A stretch of DNA of 64,000 nt from NCBI RefSeq assembly GCF_964355755.1, contig NC_092672.1:37878501-37942500 (forward strand). The letters are read 5' to 3'. Below, piece after piece: positions 9,995 to 63,800 of the stretch (its first letter is position 1; each line of letters opens with the position of its first letter). Source of the DNA: Antedon mediterranea. Taxonomy: Eukaryota; Echinodermata; Crinoidea; Comatulida; Antedonidae. The notes beneath the pieces are model-generated. The model did no database searches. It had not been told where the DNA came from and saw nothing but the letters and a program-made list of their open reading frames with translations. Position numbers and translations under genes: made by a program.

Positions 9995-12900
9995 TTACAA
10001 AACAAACAATACACTAACGAGACTGGAAACAACCAGGAACAATACGTTGGATATAGACACGGCAGCTGAATTATTGTCGTCATTGTCACCAACTATGGTT
10101 TCAGCAGTGCAGCCTAAAAAGTCAACACCAAAAAGACGTGGATAGCCATAGTCCACGCCCCGGAATCTGTCATCGTAGCGATAATACTGCTTTCCCTTTA
10201 CAAAGTACATATTAGTACCAGAACCTAGTATAAAAAATGATATAATAATTCAATATTAACTCATGATTGATGAAATGAAATATAACGTGAAAAAGCATCA
10301 TGGGGAAAATATCTGAAGATTAGTTCATGCACATTAACCAATTGATCACTCTTAAAATAATCTCTTGTGATTGGTCAAATCACTTGCGTTGCGTATGATG
10401 GACGCACAGCGCAACAATAATATACGCAATACAAGTGAGTTGACCAATCTATTGATAAAATAGGGGATAGGGGATGATCAATCGCGTCCTGTTTAGTAAA
10501 CTTGCGGCGCGCTTACGTCATTGCGTTGACTCTTCCACTAGGTGATTTCTTTTCGCTCGAATCGAAAGAGTCAGCTTAAGCCGATTTTCCACTAGGCGAA
10601 TTTGTTCGCGCGAATCGAAAGCGTCATGCTATGCACATGCGTATTCGCGTTTCTGTCTGTCATACTGCCTTCTTCGACGAATTCTAGTTCCTTTGATTTT
10701 TCGCTTTAGCGAAATTTACTAGTTCGAATTGTTTCTACTTTTTGCGAAGCGAAATATTGCGCAACCAATCAGAGCTCAGGAAATGAGCACTCATGCGAAT
10801 CGAAATGCTCAGCAACCACGCGAGGAACATGAACGTCGCAGCTTTTCGCTCATGTAGTGAAAAGAGAGTAGGCGATTTTTTTCTCTTCGAAACGTTGGAT
10901 TCGCGTGAACAAATTCGCCTAGTGGAAAATCAGCTTTATACGCATGAAAAATAGGCTTAAAGCATAGTCTTATGCGCAAACAAGTGTGTTTTGCGTCTAG
11001 TGCGATTTGGCGTCGATAAATAAATGTTAAGTCCGTCTTCTTTCCCGCCTATTACTTACCGTCTCCATAACGGAATGCTGCTGTCACGAAATCTGGAACC
11101 CCTGGAAACACAAGACTTATGCTTATTGGATAACCTGGGTCTATCGCTTTTCTTTCCTCGTTGTACCGCCAAACTAGATCATCCTTGAAAAAGTAGGTTG
11201 TTTGAAATTCGTAGTAAGTAAGAACTGCGTCAATACCGTTAGGGAGTGAAGGTTTACCAGGCTCTGTTAAACTGCTAATGTCCAACGGACCTTCTTCTTG
11301 TACATTTCCATTAAATATGTAGTAACTGTCATCTGTGAGTGGAGAAGTGAATAAAATATTAAGAAAGGAGATTTTGTTGGAAGAGCTGCCTCTTCTCTAG
11401 AATGCTTATGAGTGCGATGGTACAAATAATTTCAAGAGGTGAGAGATGATAGATGATAATCTAGGTACCGGACGGAGTTTTGACTTAATATTAGTAAAAA
11501 GATAAATTATTGTGGCAGATATGGCGTTTCATACGTATACTACTTGAGCTTGTAAATCGAAACGTCGATTGGTGAACTAACATTTAAAAGACAATAAATA
11601 GGCTACAGACTTGAGGCAAGTAGTAGTCTCTTCTCTCTTATTGTATGTGGGAGGTTAAAATCTACATTATAATTTATTATGACGCTCATGATGAACGATG
11701 AAACTACGGCATTTATAATATGCTATTTGTAATCGTGGTGTTATATTAAAAACAAAATTTAAGTTAATTAACACTTTACCTTTGAAGAAAATGATTTTAC
11801 CATCCACTGGTCGTTCGTACACAGCGTCAACGTTGCTAGGTAGATCGTAATACCAGAAGTATTTGTTGTCTTCTCCTTCAGGATTGTTCGCAACATAATT
11901 GAGATATGGTATCCTCCAATATTTGTCATTCTATAATACAAACAAAAGCGCAGGTTAGTATAATAGTAACGATATCCAGGTAAAAGTGATATTTAATTAC
12001 TTTTTTAAACGAAACCTAACGAAATCTACAGCCTGGTCATAATTAGGATTCGAGCAAGGAGGTACGTGCACACAGCGCAAGTGATTTGACCAATCACGGT
12101 CTAATGAATTATATTTCATCGCCTCGTGATTGGTCAAATTATTTACAGCACTGTTACATTCTTCTCCATATTGTGAATATCTTGCATGTGACATTATTGG
12201 ACATTTTGAATTGATGAAGGTTTACTAATATGATCAGTTGGTAGGCATATAATTATAATTTCTAATTCGTGAACTGTTCCATATTTGAAACTGTAGAAAG
12301 CAAATTTAATTTTTACCTGGAATGCAAAGATCTCATATCTAAGGAAACCGATAGCTGAATACGCCTTGTTACATCCTTCAACGTCACCAGACGTGTACGT
12401 AGGTTTTGGTCCTTCTCCTGATTTACCTACAAAGAAACTTACTATAAAAAACATTGTTTCTAACATTGTTTCTAACATTGTTTCTAACATTGTTTCTAAC
12501 ATTGTTTCTAACATTGTTTCTAACATTGTTTCCAACATTGTTTCTAACATTATTTCTAACACTGTTTCTAACATTGTTTCTAACATTGTTTCTAACATTG
12601 TTTCTGACATTGTTTCTAACATTGTTTCTGATTGTTTCTAACATTGTTTCTAACACTGTTTCTAATATTGTTTCTAACATTGTTTCTGATTGTTTCTAAC
12701 ATTGTTTCTAGCATTGTTTCTAACATTGTTTCCAACATTGTTTCTAACACTGTTTCTAACATTGTTTCTAACATTTTTTCTAACATTGTTTCTAACATTG
12801 TTTCTAGCATTGTTTCTAACACTGTTTCTAACATTGTTTCTAACATTGTTTCTAGCATTGTTTCTAACATTGTTTCCAACATTGTTTCTAACACTGTTTC

Positions 12901-15900
12901 TAACATTGTTTCTAACATTGTTTCTAGCATTGTTTCTAACATTGTTTCTAACACTGTTTCTAACATTGTTTCTAACACTGTTTCTAACACTGTTTCTAAC
13001 ATTGTTTCTAACACTGTTTCTAACATTGTTTCTAACACTGTTTCTAACATTGTTTCTAACACTGTTTCTAACATTGTTTCTAACATTGTTTCTAGCATTG
13101 TTTCTAACATTGTTTCTGACATTGTTTCTAACACTGTTTCTAACATTGTTTCTAGCATTGTTTCTAACATTGTTTCTAATATTGTTTCTAACATTGTTTC
13201 TGATTGTTTCTAACATTGTTTCTAACACTGTTTCTAACATTGTTTCTAACATTGTTTCTAACACTGTTTCTAACATTGTTTCTAACATTGTTTCTAGCAT
13301 TGTTTCTAACATTGTTTCTGACACTGTTTCTAACACTGTTTCTAACATTGTTTCTAGCATTGTTTCTAACATTGTTTCTAACACTGTTTCTAACATTGTT
13401 TCTGATTGTTTCTAACATTGTTTCTAACACTGTTTCTAGCATTGTTTCATTGTTTCTAACATTGTTTCTAACATTGTTTCTAACATTGTTTCTGATTGTT
13501 TCTAACATTGTTTCTAACATTTTTTCTAACATTGTTTCTAGCATTGTTTCTAACATTGTTTCTAACATTGTTTCTAACACTGTTTCTAATATTGTTTCTA
13601 ACATTGTTTCTAACACTGTTTCTAACATTGTTTCTAACATTGTTTCTAACATTGTTTCTAACATTGTTTCTAACATTTTATCAATAGGTTATTGATTGAT
13701 TGATTGATTTACTTCCTTTTTCCTAATTTTGTTTTGATATATTGATTCTTACACGTTTGCAGCGACCTAAATATTATGTCCGTGGTCGTCGCCATAGGCC
13801 TAACTGTAGAAAAACAAATATTAGGTCTAAGAATAACATACGTTACTTACCATATAATGCTTGGATACCTCTTGTATCATCCTCTGGTAAGCTGAACGAT
13901 GGTTGATAGCCTTGATATGAAGGATACATGAGTGCTCCCGCTACGCTAGAGTGTCCTAAACCTAGGGAGTGTCCAATCTCATGAGCCGCTACTTGAAGAA
14001 GATTGTAGCCTACAAATAAACAGGACCATTATACTTATTTCAATATATTGTATAATACTTATATCATCTGTCTTGAACAAAATTGTTATTAAAACCATCT
14101 TTAAAGAAGGTAAACCATCCAGTTTAGCCCAGTGGGTTAACTGATATTCAGGGGCCCTCTTTAATAAAATCAAAATACATTGCAACAATAAACAATAACA
14201 GGTAATCATCATAAACATTAAATGTTTTAAGGTATGAATTATCCTTTAACGAATCATCTATACCCCTTTTTTGGTTTATAAGCATTTTTGTATGTAGTAA
14301 AATGAAAACCGTTTTCCGTTCACCAACAGCGGCAAAGCCCTTACTATAAAACTTGGTTCCCACTAGGACGCAGCGCAAGGACGTAAGCGCAACGCAAGCG
14401 AGTTGACCAATCACAAGCGAAAATTCGGATAATCCATCGTTTGTGATTGGTTAACTTGCTTACATCGTTACGTTAGGTCCTAGTGGGAACCAAGCTTTAT
14501 ATAACTATTCGGTCAATAGGCCAAATATTTCTATAATAATGAATACTACTTACCATAATAAGATTTCTGAGTAAAGCGTTCTGAGTCATCGAAATGAACG
14601 TCACCAGCTAGATCTTCAAAAGTGCCCGGTGAATATGCATGAGCCAATACACCGTTTGGCCCATCAAATGGGTAATAATCTCCATGCGAGTAGGAACCAA
14701 AACTCAGATATATGTCCGCGTAACTGCCTAATTGAACTTCTTGGAATACTAAAGGTGTCACATCACTCCATATTTTGAACGCTACTGCAATTATAGCATC
14801 AACATCAGACTTAGTTAACTCGGAAGTACTGCCTGGGTAACTTACAATGCTGAAACAAATAAAGGATTGGTTGCTATTACAGATTACGAACAGTATTTGG
14901 GAGAATTCGATTTAACGACCGATGACGTAGTATCTATACATTAACCTTGGTTCCCACTATGACGCAACGCTAGGACGTAAACGCAACGCAAGCGTGTTGA
15001 CCAATGACAAGCGACAGTCGAATAAATCCATCGCTTGTGATTGGTCAAATCCCTTACGTTGCGTTACGTCCTTGCGTTGCGTCTCTAGTGGGAACCAAGC
15101 ATTACGTTGGAACGACCAAAATTGCGTCAAGGAATAACGTGCACGTCACAAACTCCACCGCATGCGCACAATTAATGAAGGAATCAGCATTTAACTGGTT
15201 CCTAAAGTCGTCGCAAATCTCCACTTTGATAAATTGTTATAACCTGTTTACCGATTCTTTCCTAACAAACTTTGTTCATATTTAAACCAGGGAAAGCAAT
15301 TGCCTTTCAGTAATCTAACTCCTTGGGATGATTCAGTAATTTCTCACTCCTGAGGACGATCAAAGCATATCGAAACGTCGGGAAACTCCGCAAACTTTAT
15401 ATCAACATTTGAAAATCTAAAAATCTGTATAAATGAATAGATATAGATGTAGAAAAGACGATGTAAAAAAAAAACGTGGTTTACCTGTAAGTAAGGGGAT
15501 TTGTTCTCCACGTATCTCCGGTGAACGCATACCGTTTGATTAACTTGCCGCCAAGCGTCTTACCGTCCTCGTTCGGCATCGTCGGGTCTGGCACACCACA
15601 TCGGGGTTTGTCCATTTGTTCAAGTGTTTCCGCGTCAATTTCTCCTGTCACGCGCATACCGTAAAATTTCTGAAAATTCGTAATTGCTTGTTTGACGGTA
15701 TCACTTTCTTTGATCTCATTTGGACCCATCATGTTTTTTTTTGGAGAGTATCCAAAGTTTTGTAGAAAAGTCTGGAAAGAAAATTATTTCATATATAATA
15801 AATCGTATATAATATAAATACTGCTAACATTTCAAACTATGTTTCTTAACCCCCAAAACATAGTTTGGTATAAATACCTGAGTAACCTTTCTTATTATTT

Positions 15901-20757: not shown

Positions 20758-23700
20758 TTATATAACAAACAATACGCTAACGAGACTGGAAACAGTTAGG
20801 AACAATACGCTGGATATAGACACGGCAGCTGAAGTTCCATCATTGTCTTCACTAACTAAGTCTTGAGCCCTGCAGCCTAAGAAGTCAATACCGTATAGAC
20901 GTGGGAAGCCTTTCTCAACGGTTCGGACTCTTTCATTGTAGCGGTAGTACACCTTTCCTTTTAAAAAGTACACATTACCTGGTTTATAAAAAAAACATCA
21001 ATATTAATCAAACAATAAATGTATAATATTAATTATTATTAATGTAACTTTGTATCATTACTGCTGGCTGGGAAGTCTCGAAAATGTGAAAGGTCGCTGT
21101 TGAGCATGGTGTGCAACATTTATATTTATGTGAGCGAAATCAGCATTAAATTGAATAGAACTGGTAACGGAATGAATATAATGAGTAGGCCTAATGTTGA
21201 TTCCGTCAAAAACCTGAGAAGCTAGAATTGTTCACACACGCAAGCAATATATAATTATTAATTCGACAGACCACTCACATCATGGACAAAATGATGAACA
21301 TGTAGTGAGATTGTCATTGTAGTGTTCACTGTATGATAGAGGCGCTCTATCATTCAGAAACAATGAATGAATCTAACACACAAGAGTCGTGGCTTGGTGG
21401 TTATGATGCGTAACTACCAATCTAAGGGTCATGGGTTCCAGTCCTGTCATATGTCAGCATTTTTTCTATTTTTTACAACTCCACTCCCAAAGACTTGTAA
21501 TAAGACTTCGTTTATGTAGAGCATCTTGTGTACGTATATGTTTGTCTTGTGAACGACATTGTCACCTTTGAGAAGGATAGTGAATGAATTTCGCTTGTGG
21601 TTATCCTTACATTATATCCTAAAAATGAGAAAATCAAATAAATAAATAATAATAGACCACTACACTTACCATCGTTATATCGGTATGCTGCAGTTAAATG
21701 ATTGGGAACACCTTTAAATCTATCACCTATGATTGTTGGAAAGCCTGGAGCTATCGCTTTTCTTTCCTCGTCGTACTGCCAAACTAGATCACCCTTGAAA
21801 AAGTAGGTTGTGCGAAATTCGTAGTAAGTAAGAACTGCGTCGATGTTATTAGGGAGTGAAGGTTCATCAGGCCTAGTTAAGCTTGAAATTGATAATGGAC
21901 CTCCTATATAATTATTTGCATCGTAGATGTAGTAATTTTCACCTGTATTCGGAAATAAATGAATAGATTATTAGTAAAGATAGAGTATAATCTTACTTAC
22001 TTAGGTTTACTTATGTGATATACTGGACGCAGGACTAAAGTCCTCTATATCCAGATCCAAATTGGTCCAATCCTGGTATTGTGAATCCTTAACTTGTGAT
22101 CGTATATTACTGGTTGATTCCGCCAGAATTTGTCCAGACTATTTTTTAAACTGTTTAAGTGAGGTTGCTGTCACAACATGTTCCGGTAATGCATTTCAAT
22201 TATCGGATATACGGTTACTAAAGGAAAATTTCCTTTTATCCAAATGGGAAACTCTCTTAAATCTTGTCTACACTATCAAATTTTATTTGTCAAAAAAGTT
22301 TGAGATTTACCCATATGGTAGTGCTATGCTTAAATATGGTAGTGATATGACATCATCATGTCCATATATGGACACATCACATTTTTTTGACACATAGCTT
22401 AATAGTCTTAGTGATGCTTACCTAGCTATTTCTTTTAGTACAGTGATCCTAGTATGAGTTATTGTAAATTTTGATGAAGCTAAGGTTTATGAGATTAACA
22501 ATTTAAAGATAAAAATAAACAAACATGATGTTCTGATATAAGGATGAGCAATTAATTAACAAGTTCCAACAAGCCGTCCAATTATTGATGAATCAATCAA
22601 TAAAAATAACGGTGCGTTACGTTCTATGTGAACCATGCTTTAAGCTTGGTTCCCACTAGAACGTAACGCAAGGACGTAAACGCAACGCAAGCGTTTTAAC
22701 CAATGACAAGCGAAGTTATAGACAGTTAGCAATCACAAGCGAATAAGCCATCGCTTGTGATTGGTCAATTTACTTGCGTTGCGTTACGCCTTTGTGTTGC
22801 GTCGCTAGTTGGAACCACGCTTTAAGCTTGGTTCCCACTAGAACGTAATGCAAGGACGTAAACGCAACGCAAGCGTTTTAACCAATGACAAGCGAAGTTA
22901 TAGACAGTTAGCAATCACAAGCGAATAAGCTATCGCTTGTGATTGGTCAATTCACTTGCGTTGCGTTACGTCCTTGCGTTGCGTCACTAGTGGGAACCAC
23001 GCTTTACGTTGCATCTACGTCCCTTGCGTTGCGTCCTAGTGGGAACCAAGCTTAAATGAAACTTTAGCGATGGATAGTTTAATTTACCTTTGAAGAAAAT
23101 GAGACTCGCATCTGGTCGCTCATACACAGCGTCTACATCGTCAGGCAATACAGAACCCCACAAGGCTTTATTTTTTACTCCATTAATATTCGTAGGAAAA
23201 CCTTGACTTGGTATTCTCCAATACCTATCATTCTACAGTGAATTCAACAATAAAGAAAGTTATTAAATGTTATCGGGGTAGGCGTGGTATTACTGTTTAA
23301 AGCAGCTGGTTAATGAAAGCTTCAGTCCTACTGTATCACCACAGAAGCCTCTTCAAGAGCAAAATATGGCGTATCAAAACATCAGTTAAAACTAAACGGT
23401 GCGCATTACATTACTCGATGTGTCAATCTCTAATACTTTACGATACATTTACACTGGCAATTTTGGCTGTTATATTTTAGAATTAAGGTTTATTAATTAT
23501 TATTTCGACTCAAGATCTGCAAAGCGCTTCGTGAAAAAGGTGGATACAGTATGTATAAACACAGTTGATATTTTACCTTGAATGCAAATATCTCAGTTCT
23601 GAGGTATCCAACAGCTGTAAACGCCTGATTACATCCTTCAGGTTTACCAGATGTGTACGTAGGTCGTGGTCCTCCTCCTCCAGATGACCCTATACACAAA

Positions 23701-31325: not shown

Positions 31326-32414
31326 ACGAATTCAAGTGAATAGTATCGCTATTTGTACTCTTAAACTATACAAATGAGGTAACTTAACTGAGCTACAACA
31401 TTTGACGAGCGCATCTTTGCAATAAGCCTCTCAAATAGGCCTGGTCCAACAATACATATTGTAAACAAACATTATTTCTTTTTTTTTCTATTAATGTAGG
31501 TCTAATGTGGTATGTTTCAATATGAATACCGCACATGCTAACAGAACAAATGTTATTCTAACCTCACACGCGGATGTAGGCCCTGTAAGCTAGAACAGGT
31601 AGTTGGCTTCCTGTAACCCTGACACTTACAAGTTATATATTCTCTCCAAATAAGGTATAACTGTGTCATTGGGTAGTGGTTGTGGCCTACTGAAGGAAAC
31701 CAACAATAAACGGATTGTATATTAAACATCGAATGATGTGTATCTATGATATAACAGGATAGGGGTTAGGCAACCTGCCAGTAGAAGAAACAGACGCACA
31801 ACCTATAACTCAGATGCTCAAAGGGCTACGGGCTTACACAGCATTTATTATCAAATATATACAAATATTTAAAATGTGTTGTTGGTACACAGACAAAGTT
31901 CTTAAATTTTTTTAAAAAGGTTAAAAAAACATACCGACAAAAGAGAAATTCCAATAACAAAAAAAAAAGCAAACAAAGAGAGTGGCAAAAATGAAGGAGT
32001 GCCTATAAACTTATATATACTTATACTACAATACAAATGGGAAATTGCAGCACGTTTTCCCCCTCCGTGGATATCATGACTCGGCAAGTTTCTAATGTTT
32101 GTTCCTCTCTCACAGGTTTAACACCAATTGCTCTTTCGAAACGATTTAGATATACTACAGTATACAGTACTAAATTTATCTTATCAATATAGGTAGGCGA
32201 CTTCCATTAGAACTTTACGCCGCCATGACTTAACATAGAGGGCGCCGTAAACGAAAGTGATAATGACAAGTTGTCTGTTTCCAAGAAAAAATTCTTGCAT
32301 TTCATTGGTCAAAAGTATAGCGCGTTGAGGTTGACCGCTTATTTAATTATGTTGATATTCATATTCCTATAGACTCACCACCACCAAAGGGTGTGTGAGT
32401 TCTATGGAACGCCG

Positions 32415-32453
32415 CACAGTGGGCCAGAATCAATTCAAAGTGTGCCAAAAGTC
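32415..32453 (+). repeat. Left TIR of the Transib-like element, RSS-like
   Basis: CACAGTG heptamer at 32415-32421, 23-bp spacer, CCAAAAGTC at 32445-32453. The nonamer matches 6 of 9 positions of ACAAAAACC. Confidence 0.8.
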
Positions 32454-33599
32454 CAAAATGGTAAATGTGGCATTCCGAACTTTTTAATATTGGATTAGGA
32501 AGAAGACATCTTAAATTATATAAATCCACTAATAATTTAATTTTTTGTAAATTTTAATAGTGTCTTGTAACCATGGAAACTTGAAGAAACCATGACATTT
32601 CACTTAAAATGAGCAAAAACAACAGTTTTGATAAATTCGCTGTTATTTTTTCTTGAAAAAAGCAATGGATTTGATACTGCATGAAATTGTCTGTTATTAA
32701 TAATATTAGGCAGTAAAATAACATTTTCGATTATTGCTTTATTTTAGGGTTAAAAGTCACAAAATATAGCCCAAAAAATACCCAAAAATCGTATTTTTAA
32801 AGTAAAACGACTAAAATAGTTTGGATTCGCGTCGATTCGCGCGCTAATTTGGACATTAGTATTTCGAGCAAAGCTTGAGCTTTACGTTAATACCAAATTT
32901 GGCTGCGAAAATTTGCGACATTGCATATAGGAAGCTATTTAAATGTCCCGTTTTAAAATAAATGTATAATGCATTTTCATTGACACATTGATGTACCGCA
33001 AGCGCACGAACTTGACGAAGAGAAAACCTTTCCACGACGCGTCTGTATTGGAAAAGAGAATGCTACCAGTGTGAGAATAAGCATTCATAAATGTAGGTAC
33101 AGGTAACATGGCCTCCATATCAAAATACAACCTTTAAAGCTGTCCATTCGGCTGGTTTAATTACCAACATTGAACTAGCCTGCAATGTATGTTTACGTAA
33201 ATTGCGTTTACATTACAATGTAAGGAATGACGAGAACATAATACCAAAATAACTTTTGGAGTATAGGCCTACTACTAAAACTATCAAACCATTTCTTTAT
33301 TATACGAAGAAGATGGTACAAGTATGGCCGTCACAAGGTTCATTTCATCAGCTATTATTAGTCAGAGAACCAGAAGAACTTCTTCATGCTGCTTCACAAG
33401 GCGTCTATTAAGACCAGCTAAAATAATCAAGTTTTATCGCTTTTCTGTACTTTTTGAACTGTTTTGATGTACATTACTTTTTGAAAGTTCATTTTTTTAT
33501 GAGAGCACGCGACTTATGGCTGTTGGCCTTGTATATGTGGAGCTACCCCAAAACAGTTGAATGATTTGGATAAACTCCCATCGTCAAGTGAAGAAGCCT

Positions 33600-34094
33600 A
33601 CAGCTATGGCTCTCGCCACTACACAAATGGAGTAGGTGCTTCAAAATGCTAATTCATATTGGTACAGAATGCCAGAAAAAAAGTGGCGTATTTCGTCTGA
33701 TAGTGAAAAAGCCCCCTGGCGCATATACCCATGTGGTCCTTCGCCAGTATTCATCCAGATCCAGATCAGAAGCCATCGTTGCCGATATGAAGAAAAGAAA
33801 TACACGATCGGTTTAAAGAAGATATAGGAATGAAAGTAGATGAACCTAAACAAGGTTCAGGAAAACAATCGCTGAAATTTGCGGGTTGGATGTAAATCTA
33901 GTACGTGTTTAGACCCTTTACAATTTGGGGACTACTGCCGAAAAACAGCAGAGTTATATATACAACTCTATCCATGGTATAAAATGCCAGTGAGTGTACA
34001 TGTTCTCCTAGTTCATGGTTCATCTATTATTTCGAGTTCTGTATTACTGATAGGTATGATGAGCGAAGAGTCTATCGATGAAAACATACAATGA
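33600..34094 (+). pseudogene. Transib/RAG1-like transposase, C-terminal remnant
   Basis: Conserved blocks occur in family order but in different frames: YRMPEKKWRI (about 33666), HDRFKEDIGMKVDEPKQGSG (about 33800), CGLDVNLVRV (about 33880), then TAELYIQLYPWYKMPVSVHV, LLVHGSSI and LLIGMMSEES (about 33948-34075). In Transib the block resembling YPWYPMP...HKxLIHG...G-x-LSEE...E-A-R-N-K corresponds to the region of RAG1 with the third catalytic acid (FHKTLAH...ASEGNESGNK); this is from memory. Stops and frameshifts separate the blocks and the final E-x-x-N-K is not intact, so it cannot be active. The N-terminal half was not recognised. Confidence 0.78.
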
Positions 34095-34556
34095 AAACAA
34101 ACGACAACATAAGTGATGTATTTCAGTCATTCAGTCAGTCAACCTATTTTCAATATTAATATTATGACATCATACTGTACATTAAAAGGATGGTTTCATT
34201 GAACTCTGTGGATCTTTAAATAATTTAAGTAGGCCTACGTTGCAATCATGGATGCAATTTAATCACACATGATATTGCAATGAGAATTAAAGTCATCTAA
34301 TCATTTTATGGCGTCTAATATATTAAGAAAATGTTCCAGTTGGATTTATTGGGTGTAATAGAAACCCTTACACTTTCAATAACGAATGTAATATCAATCG
34401 ACATAAGAATTACAAGCACATTCGCCTCAACCAATCAGAAAACACCATTTGTATTACGTCATACCTATTTAAAAATACTCCCATTAAATTCTACGAGTCT
34501 GAAAACCCCTTAGATCCTTTAAAAATTAAGGTAATCAGTATTTATTTATGCGTATA

Positions 34557-34595
34557 GACTTTTGGCACACTTTGAACCAATTCTGGCCCACTGTG
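34557..34595 (-). repeat. Right TIR of the Transib-like element, RSS-like
   Basis: The reverse complement has the same heptamer, 23-bp spacer and CCAAAAGTC as the left end; it differs at a few spacer bases (TTGGTT against TCAATT). Confidence 0.8.
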
Positions 34596-34600
34596 CGCCG

Positions 34601-60099: not shown

Positions 60100-60770
60100 G
60101 TGGAATAGAGTTAAGGCTATGCGAGCCACTGTGTTTAGGGTTCACAGATCATACGTCTCCCTTTCCACTACACATCATGAGGCGACAACATCAATGCATC
60201 TGGTGATGTGGTGGAAACGACCCCAAAAGGCTGTGGCAGGGCCTTAGTGCTGAGGCAGGGACAGCACATTTACCATCTTTTTTTTTTTGGCTCTCGCCAA
60301 CTGCTTTGATGGTTTAAATTTTATGTTTAGCGCCCTCAATTTATTTTAATGTAAAAAAAGGGAATTAATTCTCTTCGTTACGTGTTTAGAAGAGAATTAA
60401 TTTTATCTCATCATAGTTTGGTATGCCGTGCGTTTTTTATGCAAATGAGTGTGCACATGTGCTGTAAGTCATTCGCGATCAACACACAACACTGTTCAAT
60501 TTTTACTCGGGGTACCCGAGTCTAGGACTTACTCATTTTCTCCTCTTCCTCCATCTGGACACTATTGAGTAAAAAGTGCGATTTTTAAAGTACTACTCCT
60601 CCCTTATTCGTTGTAGTATTGAGCTGGGATTTGGCATGAACATACTACAGGGACATGTCCTCAAAGCTATAGAGCCGGGTTTTTAATTTTTTGTTAATTA
60701 ATTTGTTTAATTAAGAAGCCACAATGTGTGACACACACCACAGCGTTATGTAGTTATATGGTTATATGCG

Positions 60771-60841
60771 GATTCTTGGCGTAGTGGTTATCACGTTTGC
60801 TTAACACGCAGAAGGTACCTGGTTCGAGCCCGGACGAAACC
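60771..60841 (+). tRNA. tRNA-Val(AAC)-like unit 1
   Basis: Box A GCGTAGTGGTTATCAC, anticodon loop TTAACAC (AAC), box B GGTTCGAGCCC, end GAAACC followed by a T7 run (Pol III stop). The acceptor 5' strand (GATTCTT) pairs poorly, so possibly a pseudogene. Confidence 0.55.
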
Positions 60842-61057
60842 TTTTTTTAAACTTTATGGTGAAAAGTACTGTATACGCAATAATATGATAATTATACACA
60901 GTATATCTTATTTTTATTATTTTTTTAAATACTTATTTTGTGTAATCGGTAATTATCACTTTTACACATGTTTATTTTTCTTTGTGCTTATTACCATATT
61001 TATTTGTAATTTAAATGGATTAAAAAACTTTCTGTAACCCACATTTTTAGTGTAAGT

Positions 61058-61129
61058 GGTTTTCGTAGTGTAGTGGTTGTCAAGTCTGCTTAACACGCAG
61101 AAGGTCCCGGTTCGAGCCCTGGCGAAACC
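61058..61129 (+). tRNA. tRNA-Val(AAC)-like unit 2
   Basis: Acceptor GGTTTTCG against CGAAACC (one extra T). Anticodon stem TCTGC/GCAGA with loop TTAACAC. Box B GGTTCGAGCCC; one mismatch in the T stem. Confidence 0.6.
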
Positions 61130-61290
61130 TATTTTTCTTTAACTTTATTGTGAAATAACTGTATACGTCTGTATACAGCTTCTTTCGCTGTACTCCGAGT
61201 ATTGCACATTCGTGCTTTTTGGTTAATTAATTTGTTTAATTAAGAAGCCACAATGTGTGACACACACCACAGAGTTATGTAGTTATATGC

Positions 61291-61361
61291 GGCTTCTTGG
61301 CGTAGTGGTTATCACGTTTGCTCAACACGCAGAAGGTACCTGGTTCGAGCCCGGGCGAACC
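61291..61361 (+). tRNA. tRNA-Val(AAC)-like unit 3
   Basis: Duplicate of unit 1. T stem CCTGG/CCGGG intact, loop TCAACAC (AAC), a T-run after CGAACC; weak acceptor stem. Confidence 0.5.
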
Positions 61362-61573
61362 TTTTTTTTTAACTTTATGGTGAAAAGTACTGTATACGCA
61401 ATATGATAATTATACAGAGTATATCTTATTTTTATTATTTTTTAAAATACTTATTTTGTGTAATCGGTAATTATCACTTTTACACATGTTTATTTTGCTT
61501 TGTGCTTATTACCATTTATTTGTAATTTAAATGGATTAAAAAACTTTCTGTAACCCACATTTTTAATGTAAGA

Positions 61574-61644
61574 GGTTTCGTAGTGTAGTGGTTGTCAAGT
61601 CTGCTTAACACGCAGAAGGTCCCGGTTCGAGCCCTGGCGAAACC
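61574..61644 (+). tRNA. tRNA-Val(AAC)-like unit 4
   Basis: Best of the four: 7-bp acceptor GGTTTCG/CGAAACC fully paired, anticodon stem TCTGC/GCAGA around TTAACAC, box A TAGTGTAGTGGTTGTCA, box B GGTTCGAGCCC. One T-stem mismatch. Confidence 0.65.
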
Positions 61645-61800
61645 TATTTTTCTTTAACTTGCTAACTGTATACGTCTGTATACAGCTTCTTTCGCTGTAC
61701 CCCGAGTATTGCACATTCGTGCTTGTTATTTGTTAATCTTTTACATTATAATTATAATTCTACCGTTACACATTATAGTTATTCATAAAAAAAAATATCC

Positions 61801-61860
61801 GTAGAGGTTCGAACCCCAGCTGATACTACTCAAAACTGAGCATTACCCGTTGCACCACAA
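61801..61860 (-). tRNA. tRNA-like unit on the minus strand, duplicate
   Basis: Minus strand TGCAACGGGTAATGCTCAGT, then GGGGTTCGAACCTCTAC. Same architecture as 59888-59955. Confidence 0.35.
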
Positions 61861-61962
61861 ACTGAAACATGACTGAACAGCTGATAATTGTCTATTTATA
61901 CGTGTATTACGTAATTCATCATTACAACATAAATATCCTATTAACCTTGATAAAACCAAAAT

Positions 61963-62038
61963 GATCAGTTAGCTCAGTCGTGTGAGCGTCGTGTTTTTGA
62001 CAACACGTATGTCGTGCGTTCAATTCCCACGCTGGTCG
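61963..62038 (+). tRNA. tRNA-like unit, isotype unclear
   Basis: 76 nt. Acceptor GATCAGT/GCTGGTC, D stem GCTC/GAGC, anticodon stem CGTGT/ACACG with an 8-nt loop (TTTTGACA), T loop TTCAATT. The extra loop base makes the anticodon ambiguous. The 3' neighbour sequence matches that of the 60051 unit, so it may be the head of a SINE. Confidence 0.45.
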
Positions 62039-63800
62039 GTGGAATAGAGTTAAAGGTATGCGACCACTGTGTTTGAGGTTCATAGAATAATTGTACGTCC
62101 CCTTTTCCACCACACATCTTGAGAAGGCACTAGCAATGCATCTGGTAATGATGTGGTGGAAACGAACCCAAGGCTGCTGCAGGGCCTTAGTGCTGAGGCA
62201 AGGAGAGCACAATTGTTACTCTTTTTGTTGGCTTTCACTACATGTATTTGATCTCATAAATTTTATGTTAGCGGCCTAAATTTTAATGTAAAAAAGGGAT
62301 TAATTATCTTCGTTACGCGTTACGTGTTGAGAATAGAATTTATCTCTCATCATAGTTTGGTATGCCTTTCGTTGTTATACAAATGAGTTTGTGCAGGTGT
62401 AGTGGGAAAGATGGTATTGTTAGTCATTCGCGGTCAACGCGCCCCACTGTTAAATTTTGATTTTATTAATCAATGTTGCAACATTGGTAGCGAAATGTCC
62501 GATTCTTCATAGTAGTTGGTGTGTATGGCGGCACCGTCCCAGAATAAACATGTTTTAAACAGATAGTCTCCGATGGTTTTTGTATGAGGTTAATGGAGAG
62601 TGAAATAAGATCAAATATAGAAAATTTGCAAAGATGCCGATTTCCAGACCAATTTCGAAGCTTAGACTAATTCCGCCGCCGGGCTAGGCCATAGGCATAT
62701 ACGAAGTCGAGTTTTTAAAGTAGAAAACCCCACCTAGTCGCATTTGGATAGTTGAAATTTTAACATTATCATAATTATCATAGGTGACTATGTATAGTAA
62801 TAAGTATAAGTAAGTGCATTTCTGGGCTCTATTTTCATTGCTCTGCCTCAACAACCATGGATGGGCTAGTACTGGAGACTTAATATTTAATTTTATATTT
62901 CAATTAATAGGTGCACTTTTCGGGGACTAGCTCATATTATTGTCCTGGTGAGTCTTATATAGTTTGTTTCATTCAAATCACGTAACGCCATTTTTTTCGG
63001 GCGGGAACATACTGTTATAGCCTACAGCTCTTTTTTTTTTGCTCAGCCCCAAGCATGGTGGGGTACTGAAGATTCTTATATGCATGTTGTTTGAAAACAT
63101 AATAGATGTCATTTTCGGGTACCTTTGTGGCTCTATTTTAAACAGTTTGGTATGTGCATGCGTTGTTATTCAAATGAGTCTGTGCAGGTGTATTATGGTA
63201 AAGATGGTATGTTCGTCATTTGCTGTCAACACGCCACGCTGTTAAATTTTGATGCTGTTAATTATTTACATTAGAAGATTTTTCAAATCATGTAAATAAA
63301 ATATTTTCCGGGCGGGAAGCTAGCAGTTCCCCTCGTTTAGTTTACAAAAGTAATCTCGAAAAAAACTCCATGTGAAAAAAAGCCCACCCAAGAATACTAA
63401 AAATAAAGGAGCACATGGGCTACTTTTCGAGGTTTTATGGCAGTCTATTTAATGGAAAATAATGCCATACAACTTTGTTTCTGATTTATAAAAAGTTCCA
63501 CTTGACATTTACAATCCTCAAAATATCTCTTTCAAAATAAATAGAAAAACAATATTCATTATTTTCCATTAAAAAAAAATCCACTGGCGCTAAATTGGGT
63601 CCACTTGAGCACAGTGTATTAAAATACGAAAAGATTGAAACTTGAGTGACTTTATTTCTATTTTATATCAGCTCCCCTGGTGCTAAATTGGGTCTACTTG
63701 AGCAGTTACCGTAGTACTATTTCTATTATTGAAGTTAATAAAGGCATAAATGGCGCTCCTTAGAGAAATAGAATGCTCCAGTCCGTCAGAATGACGCTCT

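Follow-up and report, generated by a model that had tools for sequence, protein, structure and literature searches.

The window analysed here (64,000 nucleotides of the Antedon mediterranea genome) contains a 2,181-bp element flanked on both sides by the pentamer CGCCG (Table 1). Each end of the element begins with the heptamer CACAGTG, followed by a 23-bp spacer and an A-rich block. The two arms agree at 36 of 39 bases, with equal spacing at both ends, and the mismatches form a single three-base block in the spacer (CAA on the left, TGG on the right). This left/right difference is fixed in the family and, alongside the CGNCG target described below, is a family-specific trait. The heptamers with their 23-bp spacers and the flanking direct repeat had been proposed in an initial annotation of this DNA, and direct reading of the sequence found all of them exact. 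The A-rich block that it placed after the spacer was likewise present at both ends, but its likeness to the RSS nonamer was weak (6/9 positions). Specifically, 23 was the best nonamer offset among those tried, with a P of 0.015 for one offset that is not significant over many.

Table 1. Features of the element in the window (window positions; L047 is an older copy elsewhere in the host genome).
Feature	Position	Strand	Evidence
Left 5-bp target-site duplication, CGCCG	32410..32414	.	CGNCG-type duplication also at other copies
Element of 2,181 bp, almost certainly a non-autonomous Transib	32415..34595	+	Ends, duplication, identity to other copies
Left terminal inverted repeat: CACAGTG heptamer + 23 bp + CCAAAAGTC	32415..32453	+	Genome pattern search, arm comparison
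Junction stretch of about 120 bp, mostly unmatched in other copies	33407..33528	+	L047 mapping
Transposase remnant (ICGATPKQLNDLDKLPSSSEEAYSYG ... HDRFKEDIGMKVDEPKQGSGK), with stops	33533..33871	+	tblastn E 1.7e-20 to L047 transposase
61-bp segment absent from other copies' majority sequence; interrupts transposase remnant	33709..33769	+	Gap map
C-terminal transposase remnant (FGDYCRKTAELYIQLYPWYKMPVSVHVLLVHGSSIISSSVLLIGMMSEESIDENIQ), includes SEE region	33924..34091	+	23 genomic matches; HzTransib 6pqn residues 367-418, E 1e-10
Right terminal inverted repeat: CACAGTG + 23 bp + CCAAAAGTC; spacer TGG replaces CAA	34557..34595	-	Genome pattern search, arm comparison
Right 5-bp target-site duplication, CGCCG	34596..34600	.	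Direct reading of flank

Other features were also observed in the window. Four tandem tRNA-Val (AAC) genes lie on the + strand at 60770-62039, where a fifth tRNA call is doubtful, and positions 12450-13677 are taken up by about 100 copies of a 12-bp minisatellite unit (AACATTGTTTCT). A hemopexin repeat (Pfam PF00045, E 4.5e-9) is encoded by an exon on the - strand at 21515-21967, which is probably part of a matrix-metalloproteinase-like gene.

Related copies were sought across the 354 Mb (18 contigs) of the host genome. With up to three mismatches allowed, the end pattern gave 75 genomic matches, compared to 0 for a reversed control pattern, and this search with the ends, which the initial annotation had suggested, recovered 20 or more additional copies that have both ends. 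The initial annotation had also expected 5-bp GC-rich duplications at other copies, and among the 18 copies with scorable flanks these were exact in 13 and had one mismatch in 4. The target motif across copies was CGNCG. When left and right flanks were swapped between copies, 36/306 pairs (12%) were still identical, because nearly every site is close to CGNCG; against this background, 13 exact duplications out of 18 gave a binomial P of about 4e-9. An empty-site search with the joined flanks of the window element matched its own locus only. Compared with the window copy, 13 others were 94-95% identical and one more was 89% identical, whereas copies of the main group were 96-98% identical to one another, which indicates that the family spread fairly recently. 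The element had been called a relic; given the identity among the main copies of the non-autonomous family to which it belongs, it is not simply dead.

Broken transposase frames were found at about 33533-34091, where blocks of a C-terminal Transib-type transposase had been recognised earlier. In support of that assignment, the 56-residue C-terminal piece of the window copy had one convincing match among solved proteins, the HzTransib transposase (6pqn), and a 90-residue query that extended this piece with the adjacent sequence from another copy matched the same structure at E 8e-17. The catalytic Glu is expected within the SEE region of this piece. An older copy, L047 (C5:20843600-20846610), retains a 309-residue frame with GFDG and VDQ motifs, which align with GFDG and IDG of HzTransib. 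This frame matched residues 102-379 of 6pqn at E 7.5e-62, the sole match up to E 10, and a C-terminal piece of copy L023 matched residues 380-439 (E 3e-12). The N-terminal fragment alone gave a weak HzTransib match (E 0.09) that was collinear with the rest. Together, the remnants across copies run collinearly through most of a Transib transposase. Searches of the transposase fragments against Pfam and the RAG1 family model gave no match. Genome-wide searches with PF12940 and PF03089 matched none of the prokaryotic control genomes and are thus uninformative on absence.

Using L047 as the reference copy, we placed the catalytic Asp codons from its alignment with HzTransib, with the first (D1) at 1774 and the second (D2) at 2116 in L047 coordinates. 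Four older copies (L010, L013, L024, and L048) have a common deletion from 1736 to 1910 (about 173 bp), and the younger main group has a common deletion from 1724 to 2023 (about 298 bp). The window copy maps to 1288-1348 of L047 and then from 2166 onward, and therefore lacks both Asp codons; its junction stretch occupies the place of about 800 bp of L047 coding sequence that bears them. The deletions form a nested series, which shows the way in which the non-autonomous copies came about. In searches that can miss matches, the stretch bearing D1 (query 1-60) had one genomic match, L047, which is itself frameshifted and without its right end. As D1 was found in a single, frameshifted copy, the family is considered non-autonomous. 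No complete D-D-E in an open frame was present in the window copy (no D1 or D2) or in L047 (frameshifted), and the window copy is unable to produce an active enzyme. The longer copies L010 (8.8 kb), L017 (5.4 kb), and L023 (4.5 kb) were considered as autonomous elements and rejected, with no intact transposase in any of them. The length of L017 is due, at least partly, to a nested retrotransposon.

The homologous transposase, with HzTransib as the sole structure match, the 5-bp duplications, and the inverted repeats starting with the CAC-type heptamer CACAGTG are features of the Transib superfamily, to which the element had been assigned at the outset. We consider it almost certain that the window element is a non-autonomous cut-and-paste DNA transposon of this superfamily. 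Cutting at the heptamer and insertion with a 5-bp stagger are established in Transib and RAG biochemistry. By this precedent, the 39-bp ends would be bound by a transposase acting in trans, which would cut at the CACAGTG heptamers; insertion at CGNCG targets, staggered by 5 bp, would then produce the duplication. The family almost certainly goes back to a Transib in which the codons around the first catalytic Asp had been deleted; the window copy has undergone a further loss that included the second Asp, in addition to carrying its own 61-bp segment. As the source of the enzyme, the simplest account would be a Transib whose intact transposase gene has since been lost from this assembly or escaped detection; searches of the host genome, which can miss matches, found no intact source.

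A RAG-like origin was also weighed, in which the element would be a ProtoRAG/RAGL remnant (RAG1L-RAG2L minus RAG2L) or a RAG-proximal Subgroup I Transib. Such an origin would account for the exact RSS heptamer and the AAAA core at 23 bp, and RAGL elements have 5-bp duplications and the heptamer in common with this family (PMC7204232). We nevertheless regard it as very improbable. A RAG1 C-terminal fragment, used as a positive control in the structure library, recovered 15 vertebrate RAG1 chains, amphioxus RAG1L 6b40 (7e-13), and HzTransib (0.014). In contrast, the L047 core that matched HzTransib so strongly found no RAG1 or RAG1L/ProtoRAG chain at E≤10, although such chains are in the library, and the Pfam RAG1 model was unmatched. 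The same RAG1 fragment searched in the host genome gave only a noise-level match (E 0.2, with a stop). Inspection by eye of the copies read, including those of 4.5-8.8 kb, revealed no kelch-like or RAG2-like frame, which, together with the symmetric 23/23 ends, agrees with the earlier preference for Transib over ProtoRAG.

The structure of the ends and of the transposase core also bears on the Subgroup I alternative. Subgroup I Transibs, which are nearer to RAG1L, all have asymmetric ends and have kept the alpha11-alpha12 region, whereas HzTransib-type Transibs lost it (PMC9435367). The ends of the window element are not asymmetric in this way, and in the alpha11-alpha12 part the alignment with HzTransib is almost gapless, with no extra segment visible. 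The alignment of the 309-residue fragment as a whole is near-gapless, yet includes about 15 extra residues ahead of the second Asp. Because the ends are symmetric and the alignment is near-gapless, these sequence comparisons lend no support to the ancestry proposed in the initial annotation ("a lineage close to the ancestor of RAG"). On its protein matches, the window element is a Transib rather than a RAG-like transposon. The likeness of its ends to antibody-gene signals arises only because heptamer-like ends are common to Transibs in general; such ends, like the 5-bp duplications, occur throughout the superfamily. The RSS likeness of Transib ends, including symmetric and 12/23 types, has already been published (PMC8355894, PMC4411706). 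As the heptamer at both ends is exactly the RSS consensus and is followed at 23 bp by an AAAA core, it is conceivable, if unlikely, that vertebrate RAG1/RAG2 would recognise and cut them at a low level, which would make the family a natural 23/23 substrate.

An assignment to an unrelated superfamily (e.g., hAT or CACTA-like), with CAC-starting ends and a passenger Transib fragment, is scarcely credible. CAC/CAG ends do occur in other transposon superfamilies, but here the ordered remnants cover most of a Transib transposase across copies, the ends and 5-bp duplications fit Transib, and the main copies showed no transposase of another kind. A chance inverted repeat combined with chance coding similarity in AT-rich DNA can be dismissed, given 75 ends against 0 control matches and E-values of 1e-10 to 1e-62.

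Compared with known systems, the Transib family described here is closest in its coding remnants to HzTransib of Helicoverpa zea (6pqn, 6pqr, 6pqu, 6pqx, 6pqy, 6pr5), with which it is collinear over most of the transposase core. The likeness takes in the SEE region and, in L047, the motifs of the two catalytic Asp residues, whereas only broken and partial coding remnants were found in the host family, and the window copy is without both Asp residues. The Drosophila Transibs hopper and transib2 also produce a 5-bp duplication at a palindromic target, with the motif CCANTGG rather than CGNCG (PMC3276498). The RAGL/ProtoRAG elements of amphioxus, sea stars, and molluscs, as well as vertebrate RAG with its RSS, are alike in the CAC heptamer-like start and the 5-bp duplication, and their enzymes have distant common ancestry with the Transib transposase. 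The host family differs from these in having no RAG1L/RAG1 match, symmetric ends, a nonamer matching at only 6/9 positions, and no RAG2-like gene noticed. These results add one more Transib family in animals, whose CGNCG target is clear; the family is new, and its kind is well known. They do not speak directly to how V(D)J recombination originated, because the RSS-like ends of Transibs and their RAG1-related transposase are long established.

Several side observations were made at other copies and solitary ends. About a dozen solitary left ends in a single orientation lie within 1.7 Mb (C5:12437868-14158596; L039, L040). L039 and L040 are about 99% alike across long stretches, so the solitary left end appears to have been copied along in local segmental duplications. 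At positions 549-1436 of L043, beside a solitary Transib left end, a 296-residue open frame reads like an integrase-core protein (HIDSYDKLKPYG ... IRTDFGTEN). Copy L017 (C4:6080496-6086293) has an exact TTGCG duplication, and its nested insertion includes a reverse-transcriptase frame (Pfam RVT_1). Finally, L021 (C6:7034909-7035863) contains, at its positions 306-655, a 350-bp fold-back derivative between two left-type ends, with the near-duplications CGGCG/CGCCG.
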